In this document: positions 44,381 through 60,707 of the stretch, in pieces
Numbering within the stretch: the stretch's first letter is position 1
Layout: every line of letters begins with the position of its first letter
Assembly (NCBI GenBank): GCA_903813345.2
Contig: CAIIXF020000002.1
Span: 536,001-600,000 of the forward strand
Direction: 5' to 3'
Source: Owenia fusiformis
Taxonomy: Eukaryota; Annelida; Polychaeta; Sabellida; Oweniidae
DNA length: 64,000 bases
The notes under the pieces: generated by a model
Told to the model about the DNA's origin: nothing
Database searches by the model: none
What the model saw: the letters and a program-made list of their open reading frames with translations, nothing else
Position numbers and translations under genes: made by a program

Positions 44381-46395
44381 ATGGACTCAGATCTGAATAA
44401 AGATCATCAGAAAGGTTCATCAGCGATCGATGAATCTAAAGAATCTACAAAACAAGATGAATCAGGGAGAGATGAGAGCTCAACAGGCAACGTTTCAAGG
44501 GGTTATAGTCAGTCCCCAAAGAAACGTAAACAAGAAAAAAGAAGACAGAGTTCTTCACGTAGCTTATCTCCAAGCGCTTCAAAGGGTCGTCAGTCCCGTA
44601 AGAAGCATAAGGTAGCCCTTCATTCTTCTGAAAGGAGTGTTAAGTCTCCTATCAAAAAGAAATCTAAAAAATCTAGATCTAAAAAGAAAAAACAAAAAGT
44701 TCGTCATCATAGATCTAGATCTTCCAGTTCTTCTTCTGTGACGTCGTCATCTTTGTCACAGACTAGAAGACATGAACATAAACGTCGTAGACGTAGCCCT
44801 AGTCCCAATGGGTCCAGTTCTTCCTCTGTGTCTTCGTCTTCTTTGTCACCTAAGAGAAAGAATAAAAGAAAACGCCATAGACCTAGTCGTAGTTCTCATC
44901 GTCGTCGTCGAGATTACAGGCGTTATTCTTCTTCCTCATCTAGTTCATCAGACTCTTCAAGGTCAGATGATAGAAGAAGGTATTACAGACATCGTCGTAG
45001 ACCCTCGGTTGATTCATTTAGTCCATCAGAGAGAGGTAGAAGGAGACATCGTTTGTCTAAGTCTCCTTCACGACATAGTCATAGGCGCCGTAACAGGTCT
45101 TTTTCAAGACCACGTCAGTTGGTTCGTAGGTCCATTTCTACTCAACGGCAACCTGGTATGTCACATAACATTAGTCATTTTCCTCGGCAATTGTCACCCA
45201 CACAATCTCCTGTTAGATTTGACAGAAATGTTATGGAACGAACTAATTCTATAGTAAGTTCAGAGATGAGCAAATTCTGCTCACCTCCTCATGTCAACAG
45301 AACTTCTAGATTAGACAACGACTTTGACGAGGAAGATGATGATGTCATTGTGGATATGCCTTTAAGGGAAGAGTTTTCAAAGGCTATAAAGCAGGTACAT
45401 GAAACTTTCCAAGACCTGATTGGAGACTTAACTCCATCAAGAGATAAGTCTCAATCAAAGTCTCTCGTTAGAGACAAAACTCCAATTTCCTCGTCTTCGT
45501 TGGAATTACCTTTTTGTCCAGGGGTGAAACACAACTTAGAAGTTAATGCAAAGTTGTTCACAGAATTACCTCAAAATGCCTTCAAAAAGGATTTTCACAA
45601 TTTTGGTAATAAGCGTTTCAAGATCTCCAAAAAGCTTTATAAGGTAGTCCCTGAGACCAAGGCACAGGTCAAACCATGTGAGGTTGATGAGGATTTTTCA
45701 ACCATTTTAGGTCCAAAGTTTCAATCAACAATCTTGTTGATAAAGATACAAAGTTACCAAATTCTGATACCAAGTTAGAACCACGTCCATTTATAAACTT
45801 GAAAAACGTATCAGAATGGGAACGTGTATCTAGAGAACAACTGTGTACAGCTTCTCACACAGAGTGGTTTGTTGGTTCTGTTCGACCTATTTTGGAAGAA
45901 ATGTTGCAAGATGAATCTCTTGATAGTGCCAACAATGATAAAATTGATAAATGTCTAGCTTTAGTAAAAGCAACAGGGCATTGTATCGAAGATGGGTATA
46001 GACTAGGTTCCCACCTTCTTTCTCAGTTCGTTGGAGTACGTAGGCATTCTTTACTCAGTCTGAGAGCTGACAAAGAGACTCCTTTTTCGGAGATGAAGAC
46101 AATGATGTGTCTTGAACCACATGCTGGTAAGCTTTTTCAGGGCAAAATTTCTGTTGTGAAAGATGCCCTGAGGGAAGCTAAGCAAGATAAAGCACAGAAC
46201 CAGGTTCTAACCTTTACTGCCACAAATCAAGCCTCCGAGTCTTCTAATCCCAATCAGAAGAATACTAATTCTGGTAACCAGCCGTTTCGTGGTAAGGGAA
46301 GAGGCAGTAATAGAGGCAGGGGTAGAGGTTTCAAATCACAGTCCAACGATTTCCAAAAAGGAAATCGTGGGAAAGGACGTGGTAAACAACAGTGA
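44381..46395 (+). pseudogene. DIRS ORF1 (gag-like) with a long RS domain, one frameshift
   Basis: Residues about 40-240 are almost entirely Arg/Ser/Lys with many S-R and R-S dipeptides. An acidic patch (about 320) and a DIRS-gag-like C-terminal part follow. The frame shifts by one base near 45715 (A-run in GGTCCAAAGTTTC) and continues to 46395, with an R-G-x-G-R-G tail that suggests nucleic-acid binding. Its putative role is to package the element's RNA. The RS region resembles those of SR splicing factors, but the neighbouring ORFs show it belongs to the retrotransposon. Confidence 0.8.
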
Positions 46396-48479
46396 CTTGT
46401 TGAAGGTCGGAAACGTTTCCATTCTTCCTGTACAAGTGTTTGTAGGCCCAGTAGGGGCAAGACTACAAAGCTTTTGGCCAAATTGGAAGTCAATAGTAAC
46501 AAATCATTTTGTACTCAATATTCTAAAGGAGGGCTACTTTCTTCCCTTCATAAAGACCCCAAGTCTTACAAGAGTTCCAATTTGGTCAGATTACACAAAC
46601 AATGTAAAAAGGGAAGCTATTTCCGACCTAATATCAAGACTATTGGCCAAAAGAGCCATAGTACAGGTCACAGAGCTAGAGTCTCCTGGGTTTTACAGTC
46701 GGGTATTCATCGTACCAAAAAATCATCAAACAGATTGGAGACTGATAACAGACTTATCCATCTTGAACACTTACCTTCACGTCCCAAAGTTCAAGATGGA
46801 TACTATCGAGGTCATAAAGAAACACATGAAACAAGGAATGTGGATGTGTTCCATCGACCTTGTAGATGCGTATTTGCATGAACCGATTGCAAAAACGCAT
46901 CACAAATTTCTACGTTTTGCTGTAGAAAACACAGTTTACCAGTGGAGATGTCTCCCGTTCGGGGTATCAGTAGCTCCTTTTCTGTTTACTCAGATAGTTT
47001 CAGTGTTGAAAGTTCTTCTTCACAAGCAAAATATACTGATTTTTCAATATCTCGACGATTGGCTCGTTCTCGCAGAATCCAAGGAGATCTGCTCAAGCCA
47101 CACACAGTTAGTTCTAGACCTACAAAGAAGTTAGGTTTTCTGGTAAACGAGAAGAAATCAAACTTAGTGCCAAGTCAAAATCTCGTTTATCTAGGACCAG
47201 GCTTCGATCTAAAACGAGGAGTTGTTCTTCCAACAATGAGTCGGAAAGACTTATTAAAACAGGAAATAGGGAATTTCCTGGCCAAACAGAAGCAAGAAGC
47301 TAAAGTTTGGCAAAGAATTCTAGGTCTTCTTGCTGCCACAGAGAGATCCGTTCCCCTGGGACGTCTCTTTATGAGAGAGATGCAATTCAATCTTCAGATT
47401 GGAATCAGTCTTGTCAGGATCAGTCAGTAGAGATCCAATGGTCTCAAAAGACACAACAAAATCTAATTTGGTGGACACAAGATCAGAATTTGGACAAGGG
47501 AACACCTTTAGAGTTGCTAGTTCCCCAGAGAAAACTGTTCACAGACAGTTCTCATTATGCATGGGGGGCTCACCTAGAAGGTCAAGAGACATCGGGGATA
47601 TGGACAAAAGGAGATTTAGATCTCCATATCAATCTAAAAGAATTGATGGCTATTCAAAAGAGTCTGGTGTTTTTCCAGCATCTTTAGATAGGCAAGGTAG
47701 TACAAGTAGCATCAGACAGTGTGACAGCTGTAGCCTACTTAAAAAACCAGGGAGGAACCCACTCTTATCAGATGTTTCTAGATGCAAAGAATATTCTAAT
47801 GTGGGCACACAAACATCAAATTCTTCTAATTGTCAGACATATCCCAGGTCATCTCAATGTAATTGCAGATTACCTATCGAGACAGCATCAGATAATTGCA
47901 ACAGAATGGTCTCTGAATCATCAGGTCTTTCAGGATCTTTGCAAGATCAGGAATCGACCTCTCATAGATCTTTTTGCAACGAGACACAACAACAAGATCC
48001 CAACTTTTGTGTCCCCAGTCCCAGACCCATTAGCATGGGACGTGGATGCAATGTCCATAAATTGGACAGGCCTGTGGAGCTATGCATTTCCACCAACAGC
48101 TTTGTTAACAAGAGTCCTACAAAAGTCCCAGACTCACAAGGAAGTGCAAATAATTCTAATAGCACCTTGTTGGCCCAAGCAAAGTTGGTTTCCAATGTTA
48201 CTGGATTGTCTGGTAGATCATCCGGTAAAACATCCAATGTTTCAGAATTTACTGAAACAACCTCACAGGATGATTTTCCACCAGAATGTTCAGGCTCTTC
48301 AGCTTCACGCCTGGAAAATATCCAGCAACGTCTCCGAGAGAAAGGCTTTTCGGAAGAAGTTGCAAAACGTATCTCGAAACCTCAGAGATCCTCTTCAGTT
48401 AGACTCTATGATTCAAAGTGGAAAGGATGGGTTGATTGGTGTAATACAAGGAAAATTAATCCACTCGAACCATCTGTGA
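46289..48479 (+). pseudogene. DIRS ORF2: reverse transcriptase, RNase H and methylase-like domain, decayed
   Basis: Overlaps ORF1 by about 107 bp. RT: D-W-R-L-I-T-D-L-S, L-P-F-G-V-S-V-A-P, then the catalytic Y-L-D-D-W-L (about 47048-47065). The frame shifts near 47130 and again near 47420. RNase H follows with L-F-T-D-S-S (about 47538) and an L-K-E-L stretch; an in-frame TAG lies at 47685. The 47721-48479 part has D-L-F-A-T-R and the A-P-C-W-P segment of the region usually called the Dam-like methylase domain in DIRS elements. No functional protein can be made. Confidence 0.82.
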
Positions 48480-48650
48480 TTAAAATAGCTGACTTCTTCA
48501 ATTGGTTATTTGAGTTCAAAGGTTTCCAACCGACTACCATTGCAGGATATAGAACTGCTTTTGCTAATACCTTTAAGCAATAAGATTGAGTAGACATTAG
48601 TGCTGATCCTATGTTAAAAAATCTCTTGTCTAATTTCAAACAAGAAAGAC
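48300..48650 (+). pseudogene. DIRS tyrosine recombinase, N-terminal part
   Basis: Contains the K-x-W-x-x-W-C region and the helical N-terminal DNA-binding domain (about 48380-48580). Two in-frame stops follow (TAA at about 48583 and TGA shortly after). The frame then runs up to the target site CAAGAA at 48651, where the Polinton-like element is inserted. The catalytic half is at 55254. Confidence 0.75.
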
Positions 48651-48656
48651 CAAGAA

Positions 48657-50870
48657 AGTAGTATACGGCGGGCCTTTCGACCCCCTACCGGCACCAGTAC
48701 TTACACTTACACCGGAAGTTACACTTACACCGGAAGTGACATCATAGGTCACGTGTTGAAAGTGACGTCATAGGTCACGTGTTCCTTACACTTACACCTG
48801 GTGACATAACTGGCTCAAAGGTTACTGATAATTGATAAGAGAGTGGTTAAGTGATGATAAGCTATCTGTCTACTTCATGGATGTTTCATTGTTATAGGTC
48901 AAAGGTTGATAACAAACTGATAAAACAGTGAAAAAGATAACTGCACAACAATTTCGACCAATCACATGGCTGTAATATATCAATTTGACCAATTATATTT
49001 GACACATACTTCATAGGTTGTATAAGCTGTAGAACCATCATGCCACTTTATATCACTGGTCAAAGGTTACTGATAATTGGTGCAAGATCAAGGGTTTCTG
49101 ATAACTGATAAGATATTCAAACAAACACTGTTAAGGTAGTTTCCACTTCCACCGGAAGTGACGTCATAGATCACGTGGTAAGATGATGCACCGGAAGTGG
49201 AAGTGACGTCATAGGTCACATGGTTACTGATATAAGGTATGAGGTTCCATATCCATCCGCCAAAAGGTATATTCCCTATATAGTCCATTTAAAAACTCGT
49301 GGTATTGTTCTAAATAACGCCATAGTTGGCTTCTAGGGTACCTAGTATGCCACTATTTGGTATCAAAATAAAGAGGAGGAGTTCAACTTTCATTTGAATT
49401 ACGAAAATAGCGATGTAGGTCAAAAATAGTTCCGGCGTGAGCATGTTTACTACGCGTTTGCCCATCATATCAGAATTGAGGAAGTGGTAGCAAACGCGAG
49501 TCACAATAAATGGACGCTGATATCTCAAAAAGTAACCTGACTCCCTATAATTTGATGTAGATCAATCGAACCCCTATATGAACAGGTACATTTTGATATA
49601 TAACACTATGGGGGGTAAGCGTTTTATAGTTGGTCACGAACGCCATATGTGCAAAGTATTGTTATGAATTTTCGAATTTGGTGTTGGATTACGGTACTCA
49701 TACCTTAACTGGTCAAAGGTTTCTGATAATTGATAAGAGAGAGATAATAAACTGATAAGACCATGAAAAAGATAACTACCATGGTTTCTGATATAACTGG
49801 TCAAAGGTTACTGATAATTGATAAGAGAGAGCTCAATTGATAAGATAATCAAACATTCACTGTTAAGGTAACCTGGTGACTATGTGATAAGTTATCTTGT
49901 TTACTTCATGGATGATCGTCAAAGGTCACATATACGTCATAGGTCACATGTTCCATGTTCCACGGGAAGTGACGTCATAGGTCACGTGTTCGACTTCCAC
50001 CGGAAGTGACGTCATAGGTCACATGTTTACATGGTGTACTGGGAGGGATAGAACTGGTGAAAGGTTACTGATAACTGATAAGAGAGAGCTCAATTGATAA
50101 GATAATCAAACAAACACTTTTAAGGTAACCCGGTGACTATGTGATAAACTATCTTGTCTACTTCATGGATGTTTCATGGTTATAGGTCAAAGTTTGATAA
50201 CAAACTGATAAAACAGTAAAAAAGATAACTGCAGAAACATTTCAACCAATCAGGTTTTGACTTGCAGAATCATTTTAACCAATCAGGGCACAGTATGTTT
50301 GGATTATTTTAACCAATTATGTTTAGAGTTTCAGAATAATTTTAACCAATCGGGTTGCGGTATATTCTCATCCAATCAGATAAAAGAAAATCACTCAATA
50401 GAGGAGAATTTCTGCACAATTTAACAAGTTCAGACAGGTATTGAATATTTATAACCAAAAAGTCTCATCAGTTATTTTAGAATATATTTAAATTGTCAAG
50501 TTGATCAATTTGTGCTAATTTTTTCTCCAAACGATTCTTACTCCTGAGTCATTTTAGAATATTTTTCCAATCTTCACGCTTGAGTGACTTTCGCTTATTT
50601 CTTGAGTTTGAGGTATTTAATCACCAAATGGACACTGTATTCTTACTCCCGATACATTTAAGAACATTTTTACAATCTTCACGCTAGAGTGATTTCTGGA
50701 GTTTGAGGCATTCTTTCACCAAACGATCACTTGATTCTTACTCCTAAGTCATTTAAGAGACCGCCACCGCCACCGCCGTCGCCACCGCCGCCGCCGCCAC
50801 CGCCACCACCACCGCCGCCACCACCGCCACCTCCACCACCACCGCCACCGCCGCCACCACCGCCGCCACC
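48657..50870. repeat. left terminal inverted repeat (about 2.2 kb)
   Basis: Collinear with 53040-55253 without any length change out to the CCG/CCA tract: paired positions always sum to 103910 (checked at five places). It contains five perfect TGACGTCA sites, CACGTG sites, repeated GGTCAAAGGTTACTGATAA-type blocks and a row of CCAATCA/ATTGG boxes (50240-50390). Its inner edge is a GC-rich (CCGCCA)n tract in otherwise AT-rich DNA. Small identical frames in both arms have no recognised domains. Confidence 0.9.
48720..50020. promoter_or_regulatory. array of ETS-CRE-E-box modules in the left repeat
   Basis: The module ACCGGAAGTGACGTCA, then TAGGTCACGTG, recurs in clusters near 48730-48785, 49150-49215 and 49965-50020. 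Perfect TGACGTCA octamers lie at 48763, 49159, 49204, 49970 and 50008. CACGTG lies at 48750, 48778, 49072-type variants and 49983. Each word is a known animal transcription-factor site (ETS, CREB/ATF, USF/Myc). Function is inferred from the density. Confidence 0.6.
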
Positions 50871-50905
50871 GCCGCCGCCACCACCACCGCCTATTAATCA
50901 TTTGA

Positions 50906-50913
50906 TATAAAAG
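50906..50913 (+). promoter_or_regulatory. TATA box of the ATPase gene
   Basis: TATAAAAG just inside the left repeat. An initiator-like TTCAGTG lies about 30 bp downstream (about 50937) and the ATG at 50966 follows, which is ordinary RNA polymerase II spacing. Confidence 0.6.
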
Positions 50914-50965
50914 TGAAAAGCAGACTTGATTCATTCATTCAGTGCAACCTCATCTACGTGGCAAC

Positions 50966-52399
50966 ATGGATTACATTTGCTCTGTGTGTTCTGGTACATT
51001 TGCCAGGAAGGATAGTCTTCTGAGACATATGAAAAACATGCACAAAAAAGATGAGACTAATTTTGATCTTGACTCACCTATACAGTTCAGGCATCCCTTT
51101 ACTAAAATTGTCGCAGGTCCTACTGGATGTGGAAAGACAACCTATGTTGTCAACCTTATTGATAGAGCTGAACAATTTATCAAACCACGGCCACAAAGGA
51201 TAGTATGGTTCTTCAAACAATGGCAGCCTTTGTATGCAGAAATAAAGAGAAAACAGCCTCATATCGAGTTTGTTATGGGTCTTTGCGATGACTTGATGAA
51301 CCCCGATTACTTCGATGAGAATGTGACCAATTTGGTTGTGATAGATGACCTAATGGCTGACTTAAGCAAGGCAGTTACATTGCTATACACAGCTGGTTCT
51401 CATCACAAAAATATATCCATTATCACGCTACAACAAAATATTTTCCCACCCAATGGAGAAAGCAGGACAATGAGCTTAAACAGCCATTACTTGGTATTAT
51501 TCAAGAACCCGAGGGATCAAAGACAGATAAGTGTTTTGGCATCTCAAATGTATCCTGGAAAGACATATACTTTGCTTGACATTTACAGACAAGCTACGGA
51601 AAATCCATTTGGTTACTTAGTGGTGGATCTGAAGCAAGAAACTGAAGATGGTTCGAGGCTGAAGCCTAATGCATTGCAGCAAGTTGCAGAAAGTGATCCA
51701 TATACATCATTTCAACCTTTTTATAACACGGCAGGAAGGTCCACTGCTCAACAAAGGCAAGATATGACGGAATTCCGACCAAATACCATTGTTCAACCAA
51801 GTCAGATGGTGGCTACGTATCCAGGTCCAATGGATGATGTTACTCTAAGAAACCCCTCCATTTTGCATCTCCCCCATTGTAAAGACTGTGGCACAGTGTT
51901 GATTACCACAAAACATACAGACATACATCAAAAATATTGCCAATATGGAGATACTGATAAGAATAAACCCCATGCTGAAGATTTGAAGGAAAATTATACA
52001 TTTTCTACTCTGAAGCAGAATGTGTTGGATGGATTGAAAAAAGAAGCTGACATTTTATATGAAAAATACACTAACAAGGGATTACCGGAGAAAGAAATCA
52101 CTCAAAAGCTTAAAGCAAAACTTTATCCCAAAGCAAAATCTGAGTTTTTAAATGATTATGGTGAAATTCTGAGGTTATTCATTGAAGTCAAAGATGCTGA
52201 TTTACATCGAGAAATTGTAGAAGAAATTGAATTCTTAGTTGATCAAGACATATCTCTGTCGAGAGCCATCAGAAAAACATTGGCCAAATATTCTTATATC
52301 GCTGATGAAATGTTTAACGATGAAGAGTCTATTGACGGAAGTGATTTCGAAGATGCAGATACATCTAGTGAGATGGAAGAAGAAGACGAACGTAGTTAG
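50966..52399 (+). CDS. C2H2 zinc finger fused to an A32/FtsK-type packaging ATPase (Polinton-like), 477 aa
   Basis: The first ATG (50966) starts right before a C2H2 finger (C5, C8, H21, H26). The ATPase follows: Walker A G-P-T-G-C-G-K-T at 51-58, Walker B L-V-V-I-D-D at 123-128, and the G-S-H-H-x-N-I-S...Q-N-I-F block at 144-160. Next come S-L-N-S-H-Y and F-K-N-P-R-D near 170-184, which are characteristic of Polinton/adintovirus genome-packaging ATPases. A Cys/His cluster lies near 305-330. The C-terminal third is predicted helical and ends in an acidic tail. The family pumps DNA into capsids; here the capsid must come from elsewhere. The frame is intact. Confidence 0.88.
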   Translation: MDYICSVCSGTFARKDSLLRHMKNMHKKDETNFDLDSPIQFRHPFTKIVAGPTGCGKTTYVVNLIDRAEQFIKPRPQRIVWFFKQWQPLYAEIKRKQPHIEFVMGLCDDLMNPDYFDENVTNLVVIDDLMADLSKAVTLLYTAGSHHKNISIITLQQNIFPPNGESRTMSLNSHYLVLFKNPRDQRQISVLASQMYPGKTYTLLDIYRQATENPFGYLVVDLKQETEDGSRLKPNALQQVAESDPYTSFQPFYNTAGRSTAQQRQDMTEFRPNTIVQPSQMVATYPGPMDDVTLRNPSILHLPHCKDCGTVLITTKHTDIHQKYCQYGDTDKNKPHAEDLKENYTFSTLKQNVLDGLKKEADILYEKYTNKGLPEKEITQKLKAKLYPKAKSEFLNDYGEILRLFIEVKDADLHREIVEEIEFLVDQDISLSRAIRKTLAKYSYIADEMFNDEESIDGSDFEDADTSSEMEEEDERS

Positions 52400-52424
52400 A
52401 TTTCATGAATGAATGTTTGATGAG

Positions 52425-52433
52425 TATATAAAG
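52425..52433 (+). promoter_or_regulatory. TATA box of the 131-aa gene
   Basis: TATATAAAG, 25 bp after the ATPase stop codon. An initiator-like GCATCAG lies about 30 bp further on. The second gene therefore has its own promoter and need not be read from the ATPase transcript. Confidence 0.6.
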
Positions 52434-52485
52434 GGAAACCTTGGACATAAGCATCAGATGTTTGATAGAAAAGGAAGAAGCAACA

Positions 52486-52881
52486 ATGCCTAAGATAGTG
52501 CCTTATGTGGACAACCCAGAAGTGTGGAAGAAGTTTATACGGGCCCAAGTAGAAGGCCGAGTCATCGAACATGCTGGATATGGTAAACGAGGAAAACTCA
52601 AGTGGGTACCAGTGTCATCAGTCCGTGAACCGATTGTTCAACACGTCAGTCCCACTGAAGCTGTTTATCAGAGAGCCAAGGCAGAAATTGACAAGCAGCA
52701 GAAAGAAATGGGTGAACGGGATAGGCCACCCAAGAGAGTTTGCAGACAAATGAGTGACAATGATTCCTTTGACCACACCTCCAATGGAAATGTGATGAAT
52801 AGACTTTTTAAAAAACCTAAGAAAAAGAGGGATGTTATGGTGTATTCTGGCCCTCCTGGAAAACGTCAACACAGACAGTAA
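52486..52881 (+). CDS. small basic protein of unknown function (131 aa)
   Basis: Starts at the ATG at 52486; a short out-of-frame ATG lies upstream at about 52458. The first half is mixed, with an aromatic-rich start (V-P-Y-V and W-K-K-F). The middle is a charged helix, and the end is strongly basic with K-K-P-K-K-K-R, a likely nuclear localisation or DNA-binding tail. I do not recognise a family. Size and charge would suit a DNA-condensing core protein or a capsid cement/scaffold, but that is a guess from context. Confidence 0.65.
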   Translation: MPKIVPYVDNPEVWKKFIRAQVEGRVIEHAGYGKRGKLKWVPVSSVREPIVQHVSPTEAVYQRAKAEIDKQQKEMGERDRPPKRVCRQMSDNDSFDHTSNGNVMNRLFKKPKKKRDVMVYSGPPGKRQHRQ

Positions 52882-52935
52882 ATCCATCATCCACGGGACT
52901 ATGAAATAATTTGTATAAATGAAAATATGTATATT

Positions 52936-52941
52936 AATAAA
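52936..52941 (+). promoter_or_regulatory. poly(A) signal AATAAA of the Polinton-like element
   Basis: AATAAA 55 bp after the stop of the second gene. None is seen between the two genes, so both transcripts could end here. Confidence 0.55.
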
Positions 52942-53039
52942 CTACTATAGCACTAAATTTTTATTTGTTGTTGGGGTTGTTGTTGTCGTAGTTGTGGCAC
53001 TGGGGCGGCGGCGGTGGTGGCGGCGGTGGTGGCGGCGGT

Positions 53040-55253
53040 GGTGGCGGCGGTGGTGGCGGCGGTGGCGGTGGTGGTGGAGGTGGCGGTGGTGGCGGCGGTG
53101 GTGGTGGCGGTGGCGGCGGCGGCGGTGGCGACGGCGGTGGCGGTGGCGGTCTCTTAAATGACTTAGGAGTAAGAATCAAGTGATCGTTTGGTGAAAGAAT
53201 GCCTCAAACTCCAGAAATCACTCTAGCGTGAAGATTGTAAAAATGTTCTTAAATGTATCGGGAGTAAGAATACAGTGTCCATTTGGTGATTAAATACCTC
53301 AAACTCAAGAAATAAGCGAAAGTCACTCAAGCGTGAAGATTGGAAAAATATTCTAAAATGACTCAGGAGTAAGAATCGTTTGGAGAAAAAATTAGCACAA
53401 ATTGATCAACTTGACAATTTAAATATATTCTAAAATAACTGATGAGACTTTTTGGTTATAAATATTCAATACCTGTCTGAACTTGTTAAATTGTGCAGAA
53501 ATTCTCCTCTATTGAGTGATTTTCTTTTATCTGATTGGATGAGAATATACCGCAACCCGATTGGTTAAAATTATTCTGAAACTCTAAACATAATTGGTTA
53601 AAATAATCCAAACATACTGTGCCCTGATTGGTTAAAATGATTCTGCAAGTCAAAACCTGATTGGTTGAAATGTTTCTGCAGTTATCTTTTTTACTGTTTT
53701 ATCAGTTTGTTATCAAACTTTGACCTATAACCATGAAACATCCATGAAGTAGACAAGATAGTTTATCACATAGTCACCGGGTTACCTTAAAAGTGTTTGT
53801 TTGATTATCTTATCAATTGAGCTCTCTCTTATCAGTTATCAGTAACCTTTCACCAGTTCTATCCCTCCCAGTACACCATGTAAACATGTGACCTATGACG
53901 TCACTTCCGGTGGAAGTCGAACACGTGACCTATGACGTCACTTCCCGTGGAACATGGAACATGTGACCTATGACGTATATGTGACCTTTGACGATCATCC
54001 ATGAAGTAAACAAGATAACTTATCACATAGTCACCAGGTTACCTTAACAGTGAATGTTTGATTATCTTATCAATTGAGCTCTCTCTTATCAATTATCAGT
54101 AACCTTTGACCAGTTATATCAGAAACCATGGTAGTTATCTTTTTCATGGTCTTATCAGTTTATTATCTCTCTCTTATCAATTATCAGAAACCTTTGACCA
54201 GTTAAGGTATGAGTACCGTAATCCAACACCAAATTCGAAAATTCATAACAATACTTTGCACATATGGCGTTCGTGACCAACTATAAAACGCTTACCCCCC
54301 ATAGTGTTATATATCAAAATGTACCTGTTCATATAGGGGTTCGATTGATCTACATCAAATTATAGGGAGTCAGGTTACTTTTTGAGATATCAGCGTCCAT
54401 TTATTGTGACTCGCGTTTGCTACCACTTCCTCAATTCTGATATGATGGGCAAACGCGTAGTAAACATGCTCACGCCGGAACTATTTTTGACCTACATCGC
54501 TATTTTCGTAATTCAAATGAAAGTTGAACTCCTCCTCTTTATTTTGATACCAAATAGTGGCATACTAGGTACCCTAGAAGCCAACTATGGCGTTATTTAG
54601 AACAATACCACGAGTTTTTAAATGGACTATATAGGGAATATACCTTTTGGCGGATGGATATGGAACCTCATACCTTATATCAGTAACCATGTGACCTATG
54701 ACGTCACTTCCACTTCCGGTGCATCATCTTACCACGTGATCTATGACGTCACTTCCGGTGGAAGTGGAAACTACCTTAACAGTGTTTGTTTGAATATCTT
54801 ATCAGTTATCAGAAACCCTTGATCTTGCACCAATTATCAGTAACCTTTGACCAGTGATATAAAGTGGCATGATGGTTCTACAGCTTATACAACCTATGAA
54901 GTATGTGTCAAATATAATTGGTCAAATTGATATATTACAGCCATGTGATTGGTCGAAATTGTTGTGCAGTTATCTTTTTCACTGTTTTATCAGTTTGTTA
55001 TCAACCTTTGACCTATAACAATGAAACATCCATGAAGTAGACAGATAGCTTATCATCACTTAACCACTCTCTTATCAATTATCAGTAACCTTTGAGCCAG
55101 TTATGTCACCAGGTGTAAGTGTAAGGAACACGTGACCTATGACGTCACTTCCAACACGTGACCTATGATGTCACTTCCGGTGTAAGTGTAACTTCCGGTG
55201 TAAGTGTAAGTACCGGTGCCGGTAGGGGGTCGAAAGGCCCGCCGTATACTACT
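53040..55253. repeat. right terminal inverted repeat (about 2.2 kb)
   Basis: Mirror of 48657-50870, with the same CRE/E-box/ETS and CCAAT motif arrays. The small frames in the two arms translate identically (66 and 72 codons). The arms diverge only within the GC-rich tract at the inner edge (52990-53040). Confidence 0.9.
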
Positions 55254-55948
55254 CAAGAAATTTGTCTGAGTTTCCTCAGTGGGATTTGAACATGGTTCTT
55301 CAGGGACTTATGAGACCTCCCTTTGAACCAATTGAATTAGTAGACATTAAATTTGTCACTTGGAAGTCACTGTTTTTGTTAACACTTGCTTCTGCTGCCA
55401 GGAGAAGTGAGATTCATGCCTTAGCTGTTGATAAGGTTTCACATACTCTAGACTGGCAAAAAGTGTATTTGGGTTTCAGTAGTGATTTTGTTCCAAAGAC
55501 CTTTCTGAGAACCAAGAATATCGATCTCCTGAAAGATATAGAGATCAGTGCATTGTTAAACCCTGATTGCGCGGATGAACGTCTTCTTTGCCCCGTCAGG
55601 GCTCTGAAAGTTTATATGAGAAGAACCAAAGCTATCCGTTCCTCTCAGAAGTTACTTTTCATTGCATACAAGAAGAACTTTCAGAGAGACATCCACGTAA
55701 ATACTATCAGTTCTTGGCTTAAACAATGTATTGTGAGAGCGCTGAAAGCAGTACCAGAAGATGTAGCTAGATTGGGAAAGATCAACATACATCAATTGAG
55801 AGCAGTAGCTACTTCTGTGGCTTTTCATGCCCATGCTTCTGTGGAGGACATTTTAAATGCAGGCAGATGGTCCAGCTTTAACACCTTCACAAACTTTTAT
55901 CTTAAGGACTATACAAGAAAGAATTCTATTATGTTATATTTCGAATAA
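55254..55948 (+). pseudogene. DIRS tyrosine recombinase, catalytic part
   Basis: Resumes after the duplicated CAAGAA. The catalytic Arg lies in A-A-R-R-S-E-I-H, then H-Q-L-R-A, the second H/W position in A-G-R-W, and the nucleophilic Tyr in F-Y-L-K-D-Y (about 55912). The frame is open, but its end is replaced by the gypsy LTR from about 55922. The recombinase would integrate the circular DIRS intermediate. Confidence 0.85.
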
Positions 55949-56525: not shown

Positions 56526-59500
56526 TCAAGTCACATAGTCTTTGAGCCATTTTGGCTGATTTACAATCCTCTTCGATTTCCTTAATGGAGAACTAGAACT
56601 TGGTTCAGTGTTAATAGAGCTATGAGAGACTGGTGTAGTATTACTAGTAAGTGGAACATTATTAGAATTTTGACCACCACCATCTATCCCCCCCTCCTTG
56701 GGATGTTTACTCGAGAAAAACACCATTGGTTTAAGCATTTTAGAACCCCGTTCAGGAGTAGGAGTAGGATCATGGCCTGTTGGCATCAAATGTCTACGAT
56801 TTCTCCTGAACAAAGTTCCACTGTCACTTTTGATAATGTATGACCTAGGAGTGTGAGCTTGATTGAGAACCTTATATGGTTTACTCCATGCCTTTTCCTG
56901 ATCAAGCTTCACTCTCACAGACTGTCCAGGGGACAGTTTCTCAAGTTTTCTTGCACCATGAGATCTGTTAAAATGTTTGGCATACAGTGATTTTGCTTTA
57001 GCATCATTGTTTTGAACTTCCTGTTTATCAGGCCAATTTGGGTTTAGATTCTCAGGCGAAACTGGCAGTTTAGTTCTGATTTGTCTACCATAGAGTAATT
57101 GACTTGGCGTTTTACCTGTAGAACTGACTGGAGTGGCCCGATAATTCATAAGGGAGCTTAAGGGGTCTTCTGATTTGAGAATACGTTTGGCAGTTTGGAC
57201 GGCTCTTTCTGCGAGACCGTTACTTTGACTGTATCTGGGACTTGATGTTACATGTTTAAAATCAAACTCTTTTGCGAAATCTGCAAATTGTTTTGAGCTA
57301 AACTGTGGTCCATTATCTGATACTAACACTTCAGGGATACCATTCCTGGCAAATATCTTTTTGAGTTTGTTTATGATTTGAGTTGTTGTGACACTACCCC
57401 TAACATGAGCAATTTCTAGATAGCGAGAATAGTAATCAACTGTGACTAAATATTGCTTCTTGAAGCATTCACATAAATCAGTTGCTAATTGTTGCCAGGG
57501 GCGATCTGGTAATTTTGTTGGAATTAATGGTTCACTTCTCTGTTTAGGTTTCAAAATTTGGCAGTGCTTACATTTGGCCACCAATTCTTTGATTTGTGAT
57601 GTAAGCCCTGGCCACCATACTGTCGCATTAGCGCGTTCACGGCATTTGTGAATTCCGAAGTGACCCTCGTGAATTTGATCAAGAATATTATTGCGACATG
57701 CAGCCGGTATAGTGATACGGTTACCATACATAAGTATGTCATTGACAACACTCAAGGATTCTCTACAATCATAGTATCGCTTGGCAACTTCTTTCACGTC
57801 TTTGTAATATTCCGGCCAACCATGAAGAACATAATTCATGACTGTTGAGATTTCGGGATCAATCTGTGACAAGTCACGAATATTCTCAAGACGCGACTTC
57901 GCGACTGGTAGGTTATCATATATGAAACTCTCATATTCCGTCACACTTTCTACAGTGTTTGATTCCATGCTACTAAGCGGTTTTCTAGACAATGTGTCTG
58001 CTATGACTAATGTCTTTCCGGGTCTGTATTCAGCGATACAATTAAACCTCATGAGACGAATTAGCATTCTCTGGCATCGCACCGGTGTTTGATCAAGATC
58101 CTTTTGATTTATAATTGGCACCAGAGGTTTGTGATCAGTCACATATACAAATGATTCTAGTCCGACCAAATACTGACTGAATTTTTCCATTGACCACACC
58201 CCTGCCAAAAGTTCCTTTTCAATTTGAGCATAGCGGCGTTCGGCATCAGTTAATGAACGAGAACAGTAATGAACAGGAAACCAATCTGTTCCATGCTGTT
58301 GCTCTAAGACACCGCCTAACCCGTAACAGCTACTGTCAGCACTAACACGCGATGGCTTATTGATGTCGTAGTATTTTAGAACAGGCTTACTACTTACCTT
58401 CTGTTTCACTGTTTCAAAGGCATCCATTTGTGCTTTTCCCCAAGTCCAAATTGTGTCTTTTCTCAAAAGTTCATTCAATGGGTGAAGCATTGTAGATAAG
58501 TTTGGTATAAACCTACCTATCCAATTTATCATGCCTAAGAATCGTCGTAATTCTTCAACATTTTCAGGAATTTCCATTTCCACTATCGCAGCGACTTTGG
58601 CTGGGTCTGGCGAGACTCCATTAGCGCTAATTTTATGCCCTAAAAATACGAGCTCAGGCTTCCGGTAATGACACTTCGCCTTGTTGAGAACTAGACCGGA
58701 CTGTTTGATTTTCTGTAAGACTTGTTTGAGATTTTTATCATGATCTTCTACATTCTTACCATGAACGATAATATCATCCATGAATACTGCTACTCCAGGA
58801 CAATTTTGCAAAATGCGCGACATTTCTCTTTGAAAGATTTCTGGAGCAAGCGATATGCCTTGTGGCATCTTCTTGTATACGTAACGACCGAAGGGTGTTA
58901 TAAACGTTGTAAAACGCTGACTTACCTCGCTAAGTGGCACTTGATGAAAACCTCCTGTGGCGTCGAGGGTGGAAAAGACAGAACTTCCCGAAAGTTTCTG
59001 TAATATACAGTCAATGGTTGGTAGGACAAATCTCTCGCGCTTAACTGATTTATTAAGTTTTCTAAAGTCAACCGTCACGCGAATTTTTCCTGATTTTGAG
59101 ACTACCGGGACCATGGGTGAACACCACTCAGTAGGCTCAGTTATCTTGGCAATAATACCATTGGATTCCATTGATTCGAGTTTTTCTTGTAATGGTTTCA
59201 TTATAGGAAATGGAACGCGCCTCGGTACCACAACAGCATATGGTTCAGCATCTTGCTTCAACTCAATTTTGACAGGCTCACATTTCATTGTACCCACTTC
59301 CCCATACAATTCATTATCATTTATGGGGTCTTTTAAATGACCTGGCATTTCAGAAGTATTGTTACTAGGGGGCATTGGAATTTTATTTCTATGGTTACCA
59401 GGATCAGAACCAATTTTACCTGCCTCGCTCTGAGAGGTCTGAGTTACAACATGTACATTTTTAGTAACTAGATTCAACATTTTAGCAGATCTGCGACATA

Positions 59501-60707
59501 ATAAGTTATCACACTTTGGCCCATTTAATACAAATATTCTCATTGAGAATTTGGTACCATCAAGATTGCTATTTGTTATAAAATAACCTCTTGTATCTAT
59601 TACCCCACCTACTGACTTCAGTGGAGGACCATCATGCCTTTGTAACCTAGGTTTTGGTGTAAGGCATTCATATGCTTTGTTACTCATAACATTTACATCA
59701 GCGCCTGTGTCGATCTTGAAACTCATCAATTTACCACAAATGGGTAAGGTCACACGCCATGGTGGCTCTGTGTGCCTATCTACAATCAGTGACTTGGCAG
59801 AATCAACCAAATGCACAAGCTCACCTACATGAAACTCAGTAGTGTCAAGATCGGCTTCAGCACATTCATCATAACATTCATGTACAACTCTTTTATCAAC
59901 AGATTTCTTATTTGATTTACACACACTTGAGAAATGATTTAATTTCTTGCAATTATGACAGGTTTTTCCTTTAGCAGGGCATTTATCATTTCTGTGAATG
60001 TAGCCACATCTGTCACACTTGTGTTTGTCTGCTTTGTGTTGTGCCTGGTCTTGTTTTCTGTAGTTTTGTCGTGTAGCTCTCTGTTGCGGGGGTCGCTTAC
60101 GAACAAAATCAACGTTACTTGTATCAGTAGGTCTCCCTTCAGCTTGAGACTGTGATATTATAAGTTCATGACTACGAACTAGTTCAATAGTTTTCTCTAG
60201 AGTGAGATCACACGTCATGGCAAGTGTCTGGACTCGCTCTGACAAGTCTCTGTCTTTGATGGAAACGATGATCTTATCGCGAATCATTTCGTTTCTGTCA
60301 ACGAATGAACAATGTTGACTCAGTTTATACAAATCTCGGATATATTCCTCCATTGTTTCTGACTCTCCCAGTTGTCTAAGGTTGAAGACCCTTCGTTCAT
60401 GAATAATGTTTATCTTTGGCACAAAATAGTTATCAAATTTGCCCAAAACGGCATCAAAATTGTACCTGTTGTCTGGCGGATCAAGTATTTGGCCATCTTC
60501 AGCAACTGGTAAGGGCTCAAACGTAAACTGTTTGTATATGTCCTCTGCGGATTGGCCCATAATATATATAAGTTGACTGACTTGTGTAATATCATCCTCT
60601 TTGTTAAGTTTTGTAGCTAGCCTAAACCTCAGGAACCTTTCTCTCCAAGCAATCCACTCATTGGGTTTATCAAAGTTAAAAGGGTTTGGAGGCTGTATCT
60701 TGGCCAT
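56526..60707 (-). CDS. gypsy Gag-Pol polyprotein, 1393 aa, intact
   Basis: Gag capsid-like region about 1-200; two Cys-rich knuckles at 231-264, the second a classical C-x2-C-x4-H-x4-C. Aspartic protease D-T-G-A at 333. Reverse transcriptase about 495-690 with the F-M-D-D catalytic box near 642. RNase H about 785-910 (Asp790, T-D-H-K-P). Integrase with the H-H-C-C zinc domain 1014-1050 and catalytic D1077, D1131, E1167 (35 residues between the last two). There is no chromodomain and no env. Gag and pol lie in one frame without a stop or shift, as in several invertebrate gypsy lineages. All catalytic residues are present, so it could be mobile. It would act as a virus-like particle core in the cytoplasm and integrate in the nucleus. 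Confidence 0.95.
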   Translation of the reverse strand: MAKIQPPNPFNFDKPNEWIAWRERFLRFRLATKLNKEDDITQVSQLIYIMGQSAEDIYKQFTFEPLPVAEDGQILDPPDNRYNFDAVLGKFDNYFVPKINIIHERRVFNLRQLGESETMEEYIRDLYKLSQHCSFVDRNEMIRDKIIVSIKDRDLSERVQTLAMTCDLTLEKTIELVRSHELIISQSQAEGRPTDTSNVDFVRKRPPQQRATRQNYRKQDQAQHKADKHKCDRCGYIHRNDKCPAKGKTCHNCKKLNHFSSVCKSNKKSVDKRVVHECYDECAEADLDTTEFHVGELVHLVDSAKSLIVDRHTEPPWRVTLPICGKLMSFKIDTGADVNVMSNKAYECLTPKPRLQRHDGPPLKSVGGVIDTRGYFITNSNLDGTKFSMRIFVLNGPKCDNLLCRRSAKMLNLVTKNVHVVTQTSQSEAGKIGSDPGNHRNKIPMPPSNNTSEMPGHLKDPINDNELYGEVGTMKCEPVKIELKQDAEPYAVVVPRRVPFPIMKPLQEKLESMESNGIIAKITEPTEWCSPMVPVVSKSGKIRVTVDFRKLNKSVKRERFVLPTIDCILQKLSGSSVFSTLDATGGFHQVPLSEVSQRFTTFITPFGRYVYKKMPQGISLAPEIFQREMSRILQNCPGVAVFMDDIIVHGKNVEDHDKNLKQVLQKIKQSGLVLNKAKCHYRKPELVFLGHKISANGVSPDPAKVAAIVEMEIPENVEELRRFLGMINWIGRFIPNLSTMLHPLNELLRKDTIWTWGKAQMDAFETVKQKVSSKPVLKYYDINKPSRVSADSSCYGLGGVLEQQHGTDWFPVHYCSRSLTDAERRYAQIEKELLAGVWSMEKFSQYLVGLESFVYVTDHKPLVPIINQKDLDQTPVRCQRMLIRLMRFNCIAEYRPGKTLVIADTLSRKPLSSMESNTVESVTEYESFIYDNLPVAKSRLENIRDLSQIDPEISTVMNYVLHGWPEYYKDVKEVAKRYYDCRESLSVVNDILMYGNRITIPAACRNNILDQIHEGHFGIHKCRERANATVWWPGLTSQIKELVAKCKHCQILKPKQRSEPLIPTKLPDRPWQQLATDLCECFKKQYLVTVDYYSRYLEIAHVRGSVTTTQIINKLKKIFARNGIPEVLVSDNGPQFSSKQFADFAKEFDFKHVTSSPRYSQSNGLAERAVQTAKRILKSEDPLSSLMNYRATPVSSTGKTPSQLLYGRQIRTKLPVSPENLNPNWPDKQEVQNNDAKAKSLYAKHFNRSHGARKLEKLSPGQSVRVKLDQEKAWSKPYKVLNQAHTPRSYIIKSDSGTLFRRNRRHLMPTGHDPTPTPERGSKMLKPMVFFSSKHPKEGGIDGGGQNSNNVPLTSNTTPVSHSSINTEPSSSSPLRKSKRIVNQPKWLKDYVT

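Follow-up and report, generated by a model that had tools for sequence, protein, structure and literature searches.

A two-gene element with Polinton ends in the annelid Owenia fusiformis, a probable satellite of full-length Polintons

Introduction

How does a mobile element spread that has the ends of virus-like Polintons, yet only two genes? This question is raised by a 6,597-bp element at positions 48657-55253 of a stretch of 64,000 nucleotides from Owenia fusiformis (GenBank assembly GCA_903813345.2, contig CAIIXF020000002.1, positions 536,001 to 600,000, forward strand), here called the window. Its two open reading frames (ORFs) encode a predicted zinc-finger packaging ATPase (ORF1) and a small basic protein (ORF2). 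We propose that the element is a non-autonomous satellite of Polinton (Maverick) viruses in O. fusiformis that depends on a helper for replication, integration and packaging, and assign this reading a probability of roughly 0.6. Because it has two genes only, yet ends common to full-length Polintons, it is probably a parasite of the full-length virus-like Polintons in the same genome. A preliminary description of this DNA had suggested a minimal Polinton-like element whose gene set is reduced to a packaging ATPase and one further gene, and which may move and be packaged with helpers. The gene content is supported, and so is movement with a helper, by shared ends and mobility. Mobilisation in trans is thus well supported, and replication and integration in trans would follow closely from the anatomy. 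Packaging in helper particles, which we infer, is the least certain step.

Ends shared with longer Polintons

Full Polintons with the ends of the element were sought, as the preliminary description had suggested, and longer Polintons with the same ends are present in the same genome. In one of them, L036, the terminal 482 bp have identities of 98.5% and 99.0% with the two ends of the window element. The first 500 bp of the left window end agree with L036 in 98.2% of aligned bases (95.8% of the span); the next-closest among the other elements' ends compared is L012 with 97.2-97.4% (span 91.0-91.2%). L009 and L011 have a core 98% identical to that of the window, yet their ends agree over only 59-68% of the span.

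From the shared end inward, L036 encodes frames of 204, 127 and 136 amino acids (aa), an ORF2 homologue (116 aa) and a capsid-like protein (444 aa). A protease-like protein and an integrase follow, then a fingerless ATPase of 220 aa and a pair of small frames. In a second longer Polinton, L035, the gene order matches that of L036 from the ORF2 homologue onward, and in both, polymerase-like frames on the opposite strand come next. The ends of L035 itself lie outside the fetched stretch, with a motif end 2.5 kb further on. The L035 integrase contains Pfam rve and a chromodomain. Peptidase_C5 is weak in L035 (0.019) and above cut-off in the homologue of a third Polinton, L034.

The capsid-like protein yielded a low-confidence model (mean predicted local distance difference test score 48.5), and 23 of the 50 viral matches listed for this model carry capsid or hexon in their names. 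The top-ranked match is an uncharacterised protein filed under a bracovirus, and ranks 2 and 3 are adomavirus LO7, which we take to be hexon-like. Most of the others have no telling name, and a few names are unrelated. This model search is only supportive, and an alignment of the capsid-like protein found no match among PDB sequences. The polymerase-like pieces were not recognised by Pfam. PHROGs gave a phage DNA polymerase profile for one piece (4.5e-4) and also an endonuclease (2e-6), and a search of PDB sequences with a polymerase-like piece gave zinc fingers with E values no better than 0.02.

L035 and L036, the two Polinton stretches with such ends or such an ORF2 that were read, both lack the zinc-finger ATPase. 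Because L036 combines the same ends with a different, fingerless ATPase, the element is, judging by gene content, not a simple deletion product of an L036-type Polinton. It had been proposed that the element kept or took its ATPase; simple retention from the present helper does not hold, since the same-ended Polintons have a different one. The ends differ by 1-1.5% whereas the genes diverged long ago; satellite and helper have thus swapped their ends or kept them alike, and the element is best read as a chimaera, not as a remnant.

Anatomy of the element

The preliminary description had reported AG...CT ends, the duplication CAAGAA, inverted repeats of about 2.2 kb and a core with two genes, all of which, together with the boundaries, are confirmed to the base. 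The outer ends read AGTAGT...ACTACT, with the end sequence AGTAGTATACGGCGGGCCTTTCGACC. The features are as follows.

48651..48656, no strand: left copy of the target duplication, CAAGAA (6 bp)
48657..50891, plus strand: left terminal inverted repeat, 2,235 bp, with internal short repeats and a (CCG)n-like tract at its inner end
48657-48680, in the left repeat: end motif AGTAGTATA-N9-TTTCGA
50892-53018: core, 2,127 bp, holding ORF1 and ORF2
50906..50912, plus strand: candidate TATA-like box 5' of ORF1, read from the sequence
50966..52399, plus strand: ORF1, 477 aa from ATG
52425..52431, plus strand: candidate TATA-like box 5' of ORF2, read from the sequence
52486..52881, plus strand: ORF2, 131 aa from ATG, basic protein
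52936..52941, plus strand: single AATAAA polyadenylation-like signal 3' of ORF2
53019..55253, minus strand: right terminal inverted repeat, 2,235 bp
55254..55259, no strand: right copy of the target duplication, CAAGAA

Direct comparison of the two repeats revealed only 4 mismatches; therefore, the insertion is young, or the repeats were recently equalised. According to the open reading frame list, no frame of more than 90 aa besides ORF1 and ORF2 is present within 48657-55253, so that none is long enough for polymerase B, integrase, capsid proteins or protease. In ORF1 and ORF2, Pfam found no match to rve.

The inverted repeat is a possible promoter or origin region, to judge from its composition. 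Several transcription-factor words (GATA 31, AGGTCA 10, CRE 5, ETS 5, CACGTG 4) exceed shuffles in 48657-50750, an enrichment that is inflated by the internal repeats. It is uneven among repeats: CCAAT is not enriched in that of the window, and the E-box is absent in L017.

Copies and target sites in the genome

A genome scan for the end motif gave 84 hits (43 forward, 41 reverse) compared to 4 (1 + 3) for the reversed control; the motif is, therefore, not due to chance. The motif list contains 30 convergent pairs with a spacing of 3.3-9.6 kb. Sixteen of them overlap core matches listed, two more (C3, C139) hold an ORF2-like match, and 12 are without a match to the core among the matches listed. 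A DNA search of the genome with most of the core as query gave at least 51 matches, a lower bound, as 40 of 57 candidates were scored. Among the matches listed are five copies at 98-100% (window included), one at 96% and 12 at 92%; the remainder comprises a split copy and pieces that are shorter or match less well. The search for ATPase copies likewise gives a lower bound (89 of 281 candidates scored). In addition, the genome holds several other subfamilies of the zinc-finger ATPase (identity about 37-56%) whose frames are open, apparently in several copies each.

Both ends and an exact 6-bp duplication are present in 11 of 21 stretches (the window and 20 loci). L013 has both ends but no exact duplication, and in the other nine, one or no motif end lies inside the stretch. 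Five further motif-bounded elements (L029-L033) all have exact duplications; three of these, L030, L032 and L033, share the ends and are without ORF1 or ORF2. An element at C5:3929-17338 (13.4 kb by coordinates) carries the motif at both ends, with one mismatch on the right, and the duplication CAGAGC; its repeats are 95.4% alike over 612 bp, and its interior is known from an ORF2 DNA match only. Including this one, 17 elements (the window and 16 others) have exact 6-bp duplications, and all 17 are different. The element family is mobile, many-copied and young.

The preliminary description had called for other copies with the same two genes and different targets, and these were seen. A core that contains polymerase B or integrase in all copies was not encountered in the copies read. 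Junctions that occur only once in the assembly are excluded by the multiple copies with both ends and duplications; as the duplications are exact and different, a single-copy assembly artefact was rejected. Domestication by the host was also rejected, since the copies move and their targets differ.

Two further observations concern the structure of single loci. The repeats of L032 contain part of the L036 gene of 204 aa (92% DNA identity). At L014/L015 (G000:C10:22412600-22427000), two window-type cores with identical ATPase genes stand head to head. This pair resembles an inverted dimer and may have arisen during replication.

ORF1, a predicted zinc-finger packaging ATPase

ORF1 comprises an N-terminal C2H2 zinc finger, a HerA/FtsK-type packaging ATPase domain and a helical C-terminal domain. 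A second motif, C-x2-C...H-x3-C, is found at residues 305-325. Its predicted fold places ORF1 among the packaging ATPases of the FtsK-HerA/A32 type. Pfam Adeno_IVa2 and Pox_A32 stayed below cut-off for ORF1; Pox_A32 is above cut-off for its L034 homologue. Among PDB sequences, ORF1 obtained a match at E 0.001 through the zinc finger only. IMG/VR scans for the ATPase, one with a single protein as query and one with an alignment, confirmed no relative. The ATPase of L035/L036 is 36% identical to ORF1 over 206 residues and has no finger.

A midpoint-rooted ATPase tree was built from 49 rows, 8 from the Owenia genome and 41 from outside, the latter being the odd-numbered among 120 listed homologues of 400-620 aa plus the protein P0001. 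The satellite ATPases (window, L012, L017, L021, L029) and P0001 form one group (98/95) beside L034, a grouping that holds for the rows included, as the tree omits the other ATPase copies of the genome, i.e. most of them. The ATPases of the window type and the C139/L029 type are about 40% identical, and both types keep the two-gene layout.

L034 is a Polinton of about 8 kb (L034:1837-9808; G000:C1:29046500-29056400) with the ends AGTAGATAG and the duplication ATCAAT. It encodes a zinc-finger ATPase, an integrase, frames of 100 and 138 aa, an ORF2 homologue, a capsid-like protein and a protease. No further frame of at least 75 aa that could be a polymerase is present in L034. Perhaps, L034 is itself dependent on another element.

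ORF2, a homologue of a Polinton protein

ORF2 contains 29 lysines plus arginines and 15 aspartates plus glutamates among its 131 aa. Its database matches are three Owenia proteins (one at 99%) and one ENA protein. The preliminary description had regarded the second gene as an orphan, a view that has to be abandoned: A homologue is located directly upstream of the capsid-like gene in L034, L035 and L036. In L034 and L036, it adjoins a frame of 136-138 aa on one side and the capsid-like gene on the other. About 73 N-terminal aa of ORF2 are conserved with the L035 and L036 homologues, and the tail is different. For the first 73 codons compared with L036, the synonymous rate (dS) is 0.57 and the ratio of nonsynonymous to synonymous rates (dN/dS) 0.14. 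On sequence likeness, ORF2 is thus a homologue of a Polinton gene beside the capsid-like gene.

Selection on both genes

Nineteen core-bearing stretches (window, L009-L026) were compared. An ATPase frame of at least 440 aa is kept in 13 and a full-length ORF2 (131 or 144 aa) in 17 of them; the ORF2 tails are altered in L024 and L025. Between the window and subfamily 2, dN/dS of the ATPase is 0.18-0.23 (9 copies with a frame of at least 440 aa, among them L014 and L015, which are identical to each other) and that of ORF2 0.10-0.15 (11 normal-tail copies), with 0.29 in L024 and L025. In subfamily 1, where changes are few, the values are 0.19-0.30 for the ATPase (3 copies) and 0.08-0.39 for ORF2 (5 copies). 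When 82 random changes were simulated, 965 of 1,000 frames gained a stop, a count that is biased because the copies were picked for open frames. Better evidence comes from the nonsynonymous changes: L017 differs from the window by 36 of these, and each of the 1,000 simulated frames had more. Within subfamily 2, the pairwise sums for the ATPase amount to 176 synonymous and 184 nonsynonymous changes. Judged by these substitution patterns, both genes are under purifying selection.

Flanking sequences

The insertion interrupts a retroelement (46289-48583 and 55262-55948) with reverse-transcriptase-like and recombinase-like frames. From inspection of the frames we take it to be of the DIRS type; the recombinase-like frame found no confirmation in Pfam. 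Another long frame, of a separate retroelement, is located at 56526-60707 on the minus strand.

Discussion

If the element is a satellite, a helper polymerase would copy it from the shared ends, and the repeated end trinucleotide would serve protein-primed replication by jumping back, a mode proposed for Mavericks (PMC8097293). The helper integrase would insert the copy and thereby generate the 6-bp duplication, and helper capsid proteins would form the particle. The zinc-finger motor ORF1 would load satellite DNA into these particles, its fingers possibly selecting this DNA. ORF2, with its changed basic tail, might join the particle via its conserved N-terminus and likewise favour loading of satellite DNA.

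Several points weigh against this reading. The satellite is known from genome sequence alone, not from particles, transcripts or excised DNA. A conserved ATPase means that it is used, not necessarily for packaging, and since the helper owns an ATPase, that of the satellite must confer some putative advantage. The zinc-finger ATPase is not special to satellites, as L034 with its integrase and capsid-like genes has one. Elements without ORF1 and ORF2 (L030, L032, L033) move too. The polymerase-like region of L035 is split over several frames, so that an active helper is only putative. The copies used for dN/dS and stop counts were chosen for open ATPase frames, and 6 of the 19 stretches are without a 440-aa frame. 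Within subfamily 2, the ORF2 pairwise sums (413 synonymous, 863 nonsynonymous, two altered-tail copies included) alone indicate no selection.

Among the alternatives, interference with the helper fares best, although we regard it as unlikely. ORF1 and the tail-changed ORF2 would act against the helper, e.g. as competing motor and capsid-associated protein, and be kept for limiting its spread; packaging of the element's own DNA would be secondary or absent. The helper N-terminus of ORF2 with its different tail and the different ATPase owned by the helper would fit such a role. However, the copies multiply and share the helper ends, and selection for own spread explains both without a host benefit. 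Interference and hijacking of packaging are compatible and not exclusive. Still less probable is a segment of a divided Polinton, whose elements complement each other, this one supplying ATPase and basic protein: L034 with ATPase, integrase, capsid-like protein and protease and no polymerase-sized frame illustrates that gene sets do divide here, but L035 and L036 own both an ATPase and an ORF2 homologue and need no supply. Least probable is a plain non-autonomous deletion derivative resembling a miniature inverted-repeat transposable element with two frames as passengers. The gene-less elements with exact duplications and the 12 of 30 end pairs without a core match among the matches listed indicate that ends alone suffice for movement, but the purifying selection between window and subfamily 2 does not match neutral decay, most core-bearing stretches keep an ATPase frame and most a full ORF2, and L035 and L036 have no zinc-finger ATPase.

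Comparison with known systems

With Polinton/Maverick (adintovirus-type) elements, the Owenia element has in common the 6-bp duplication, the inverted repeats and the packaging ATPase. Vertebrate Mavericks have (AGT)2//(ACT)2 ends as the Owenia element does, and their gene order is integrase, minor capsid, PW, major capsid, protease (PMC8097293). The ORF2 homologue occupies the PW position in L034 and L036, a likeness in position (PMC8097293). Unlike Polintons of 15-20 kb (PMC4028283), the satellite comprises 6.6 kb. In contrast to autonomous Polintons, it is devoid of polymerase B, integrase, capsid and protease, and its zinc-finger ATPase is unlike that of L035/L036. Nine Polintons without major capsid protein also lacked protease and ATPase (PMC4028283). 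The satellite resembles these in its reduced gene set but has kept the ATPase, alone among the genes missing there.

No published two-gene Polinton satellite was found in the accessible parts of the literature, including PMC4028283, PMC6431247, PMC11071308, PMC8097293 and PMC3671162, with few subscription papers covered and Repbase unsearched. Although Mavericks have capsid genes, their particles had, according to a 2021 paper, yet to be seen (PMC8097293). If the proposal is true, a satellite in which selection has kept only a motor and a capsid-cluster protein would argue indirectly that Maverick particles form and that elements compete for them. With satellite and helper in one animal genome, a direct test is possible.

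Virophages and transpovirons are also dependents of larger DNA viruses. Virophages encode their own capsid, and transpovirons are linear plasmids that carry a helicase (PMC3671162). Neither description fits an element of motor plus basic protein, which has no frame long enough for a major capsid protein of its own. Phage satellites come closer. Phage-inducible chromosomal islands (PICIs) and Staphylococcus aureus pathogenicity islands (SaPIs) are small integrated elements, too, and some encode their own terminase small subunit directing preferential packaging (PMC6092414). They differ in being bacterial, in having their own integrase and replication genes and in using an unrelated motor family. 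More tentatively, and with somewhat less than even confidence, the Owenia family might be to animals what phage satellites are to bacteria: an old line of elements that hijack packaging, repeatedly took over helper Polinton ends by recombination and, without genes for replication, integration or capsid, kept a zinc-finger motor and a tail-swapped capsid-cluster protein. The closest working analogy is provided by the satellites with their own small terminase.

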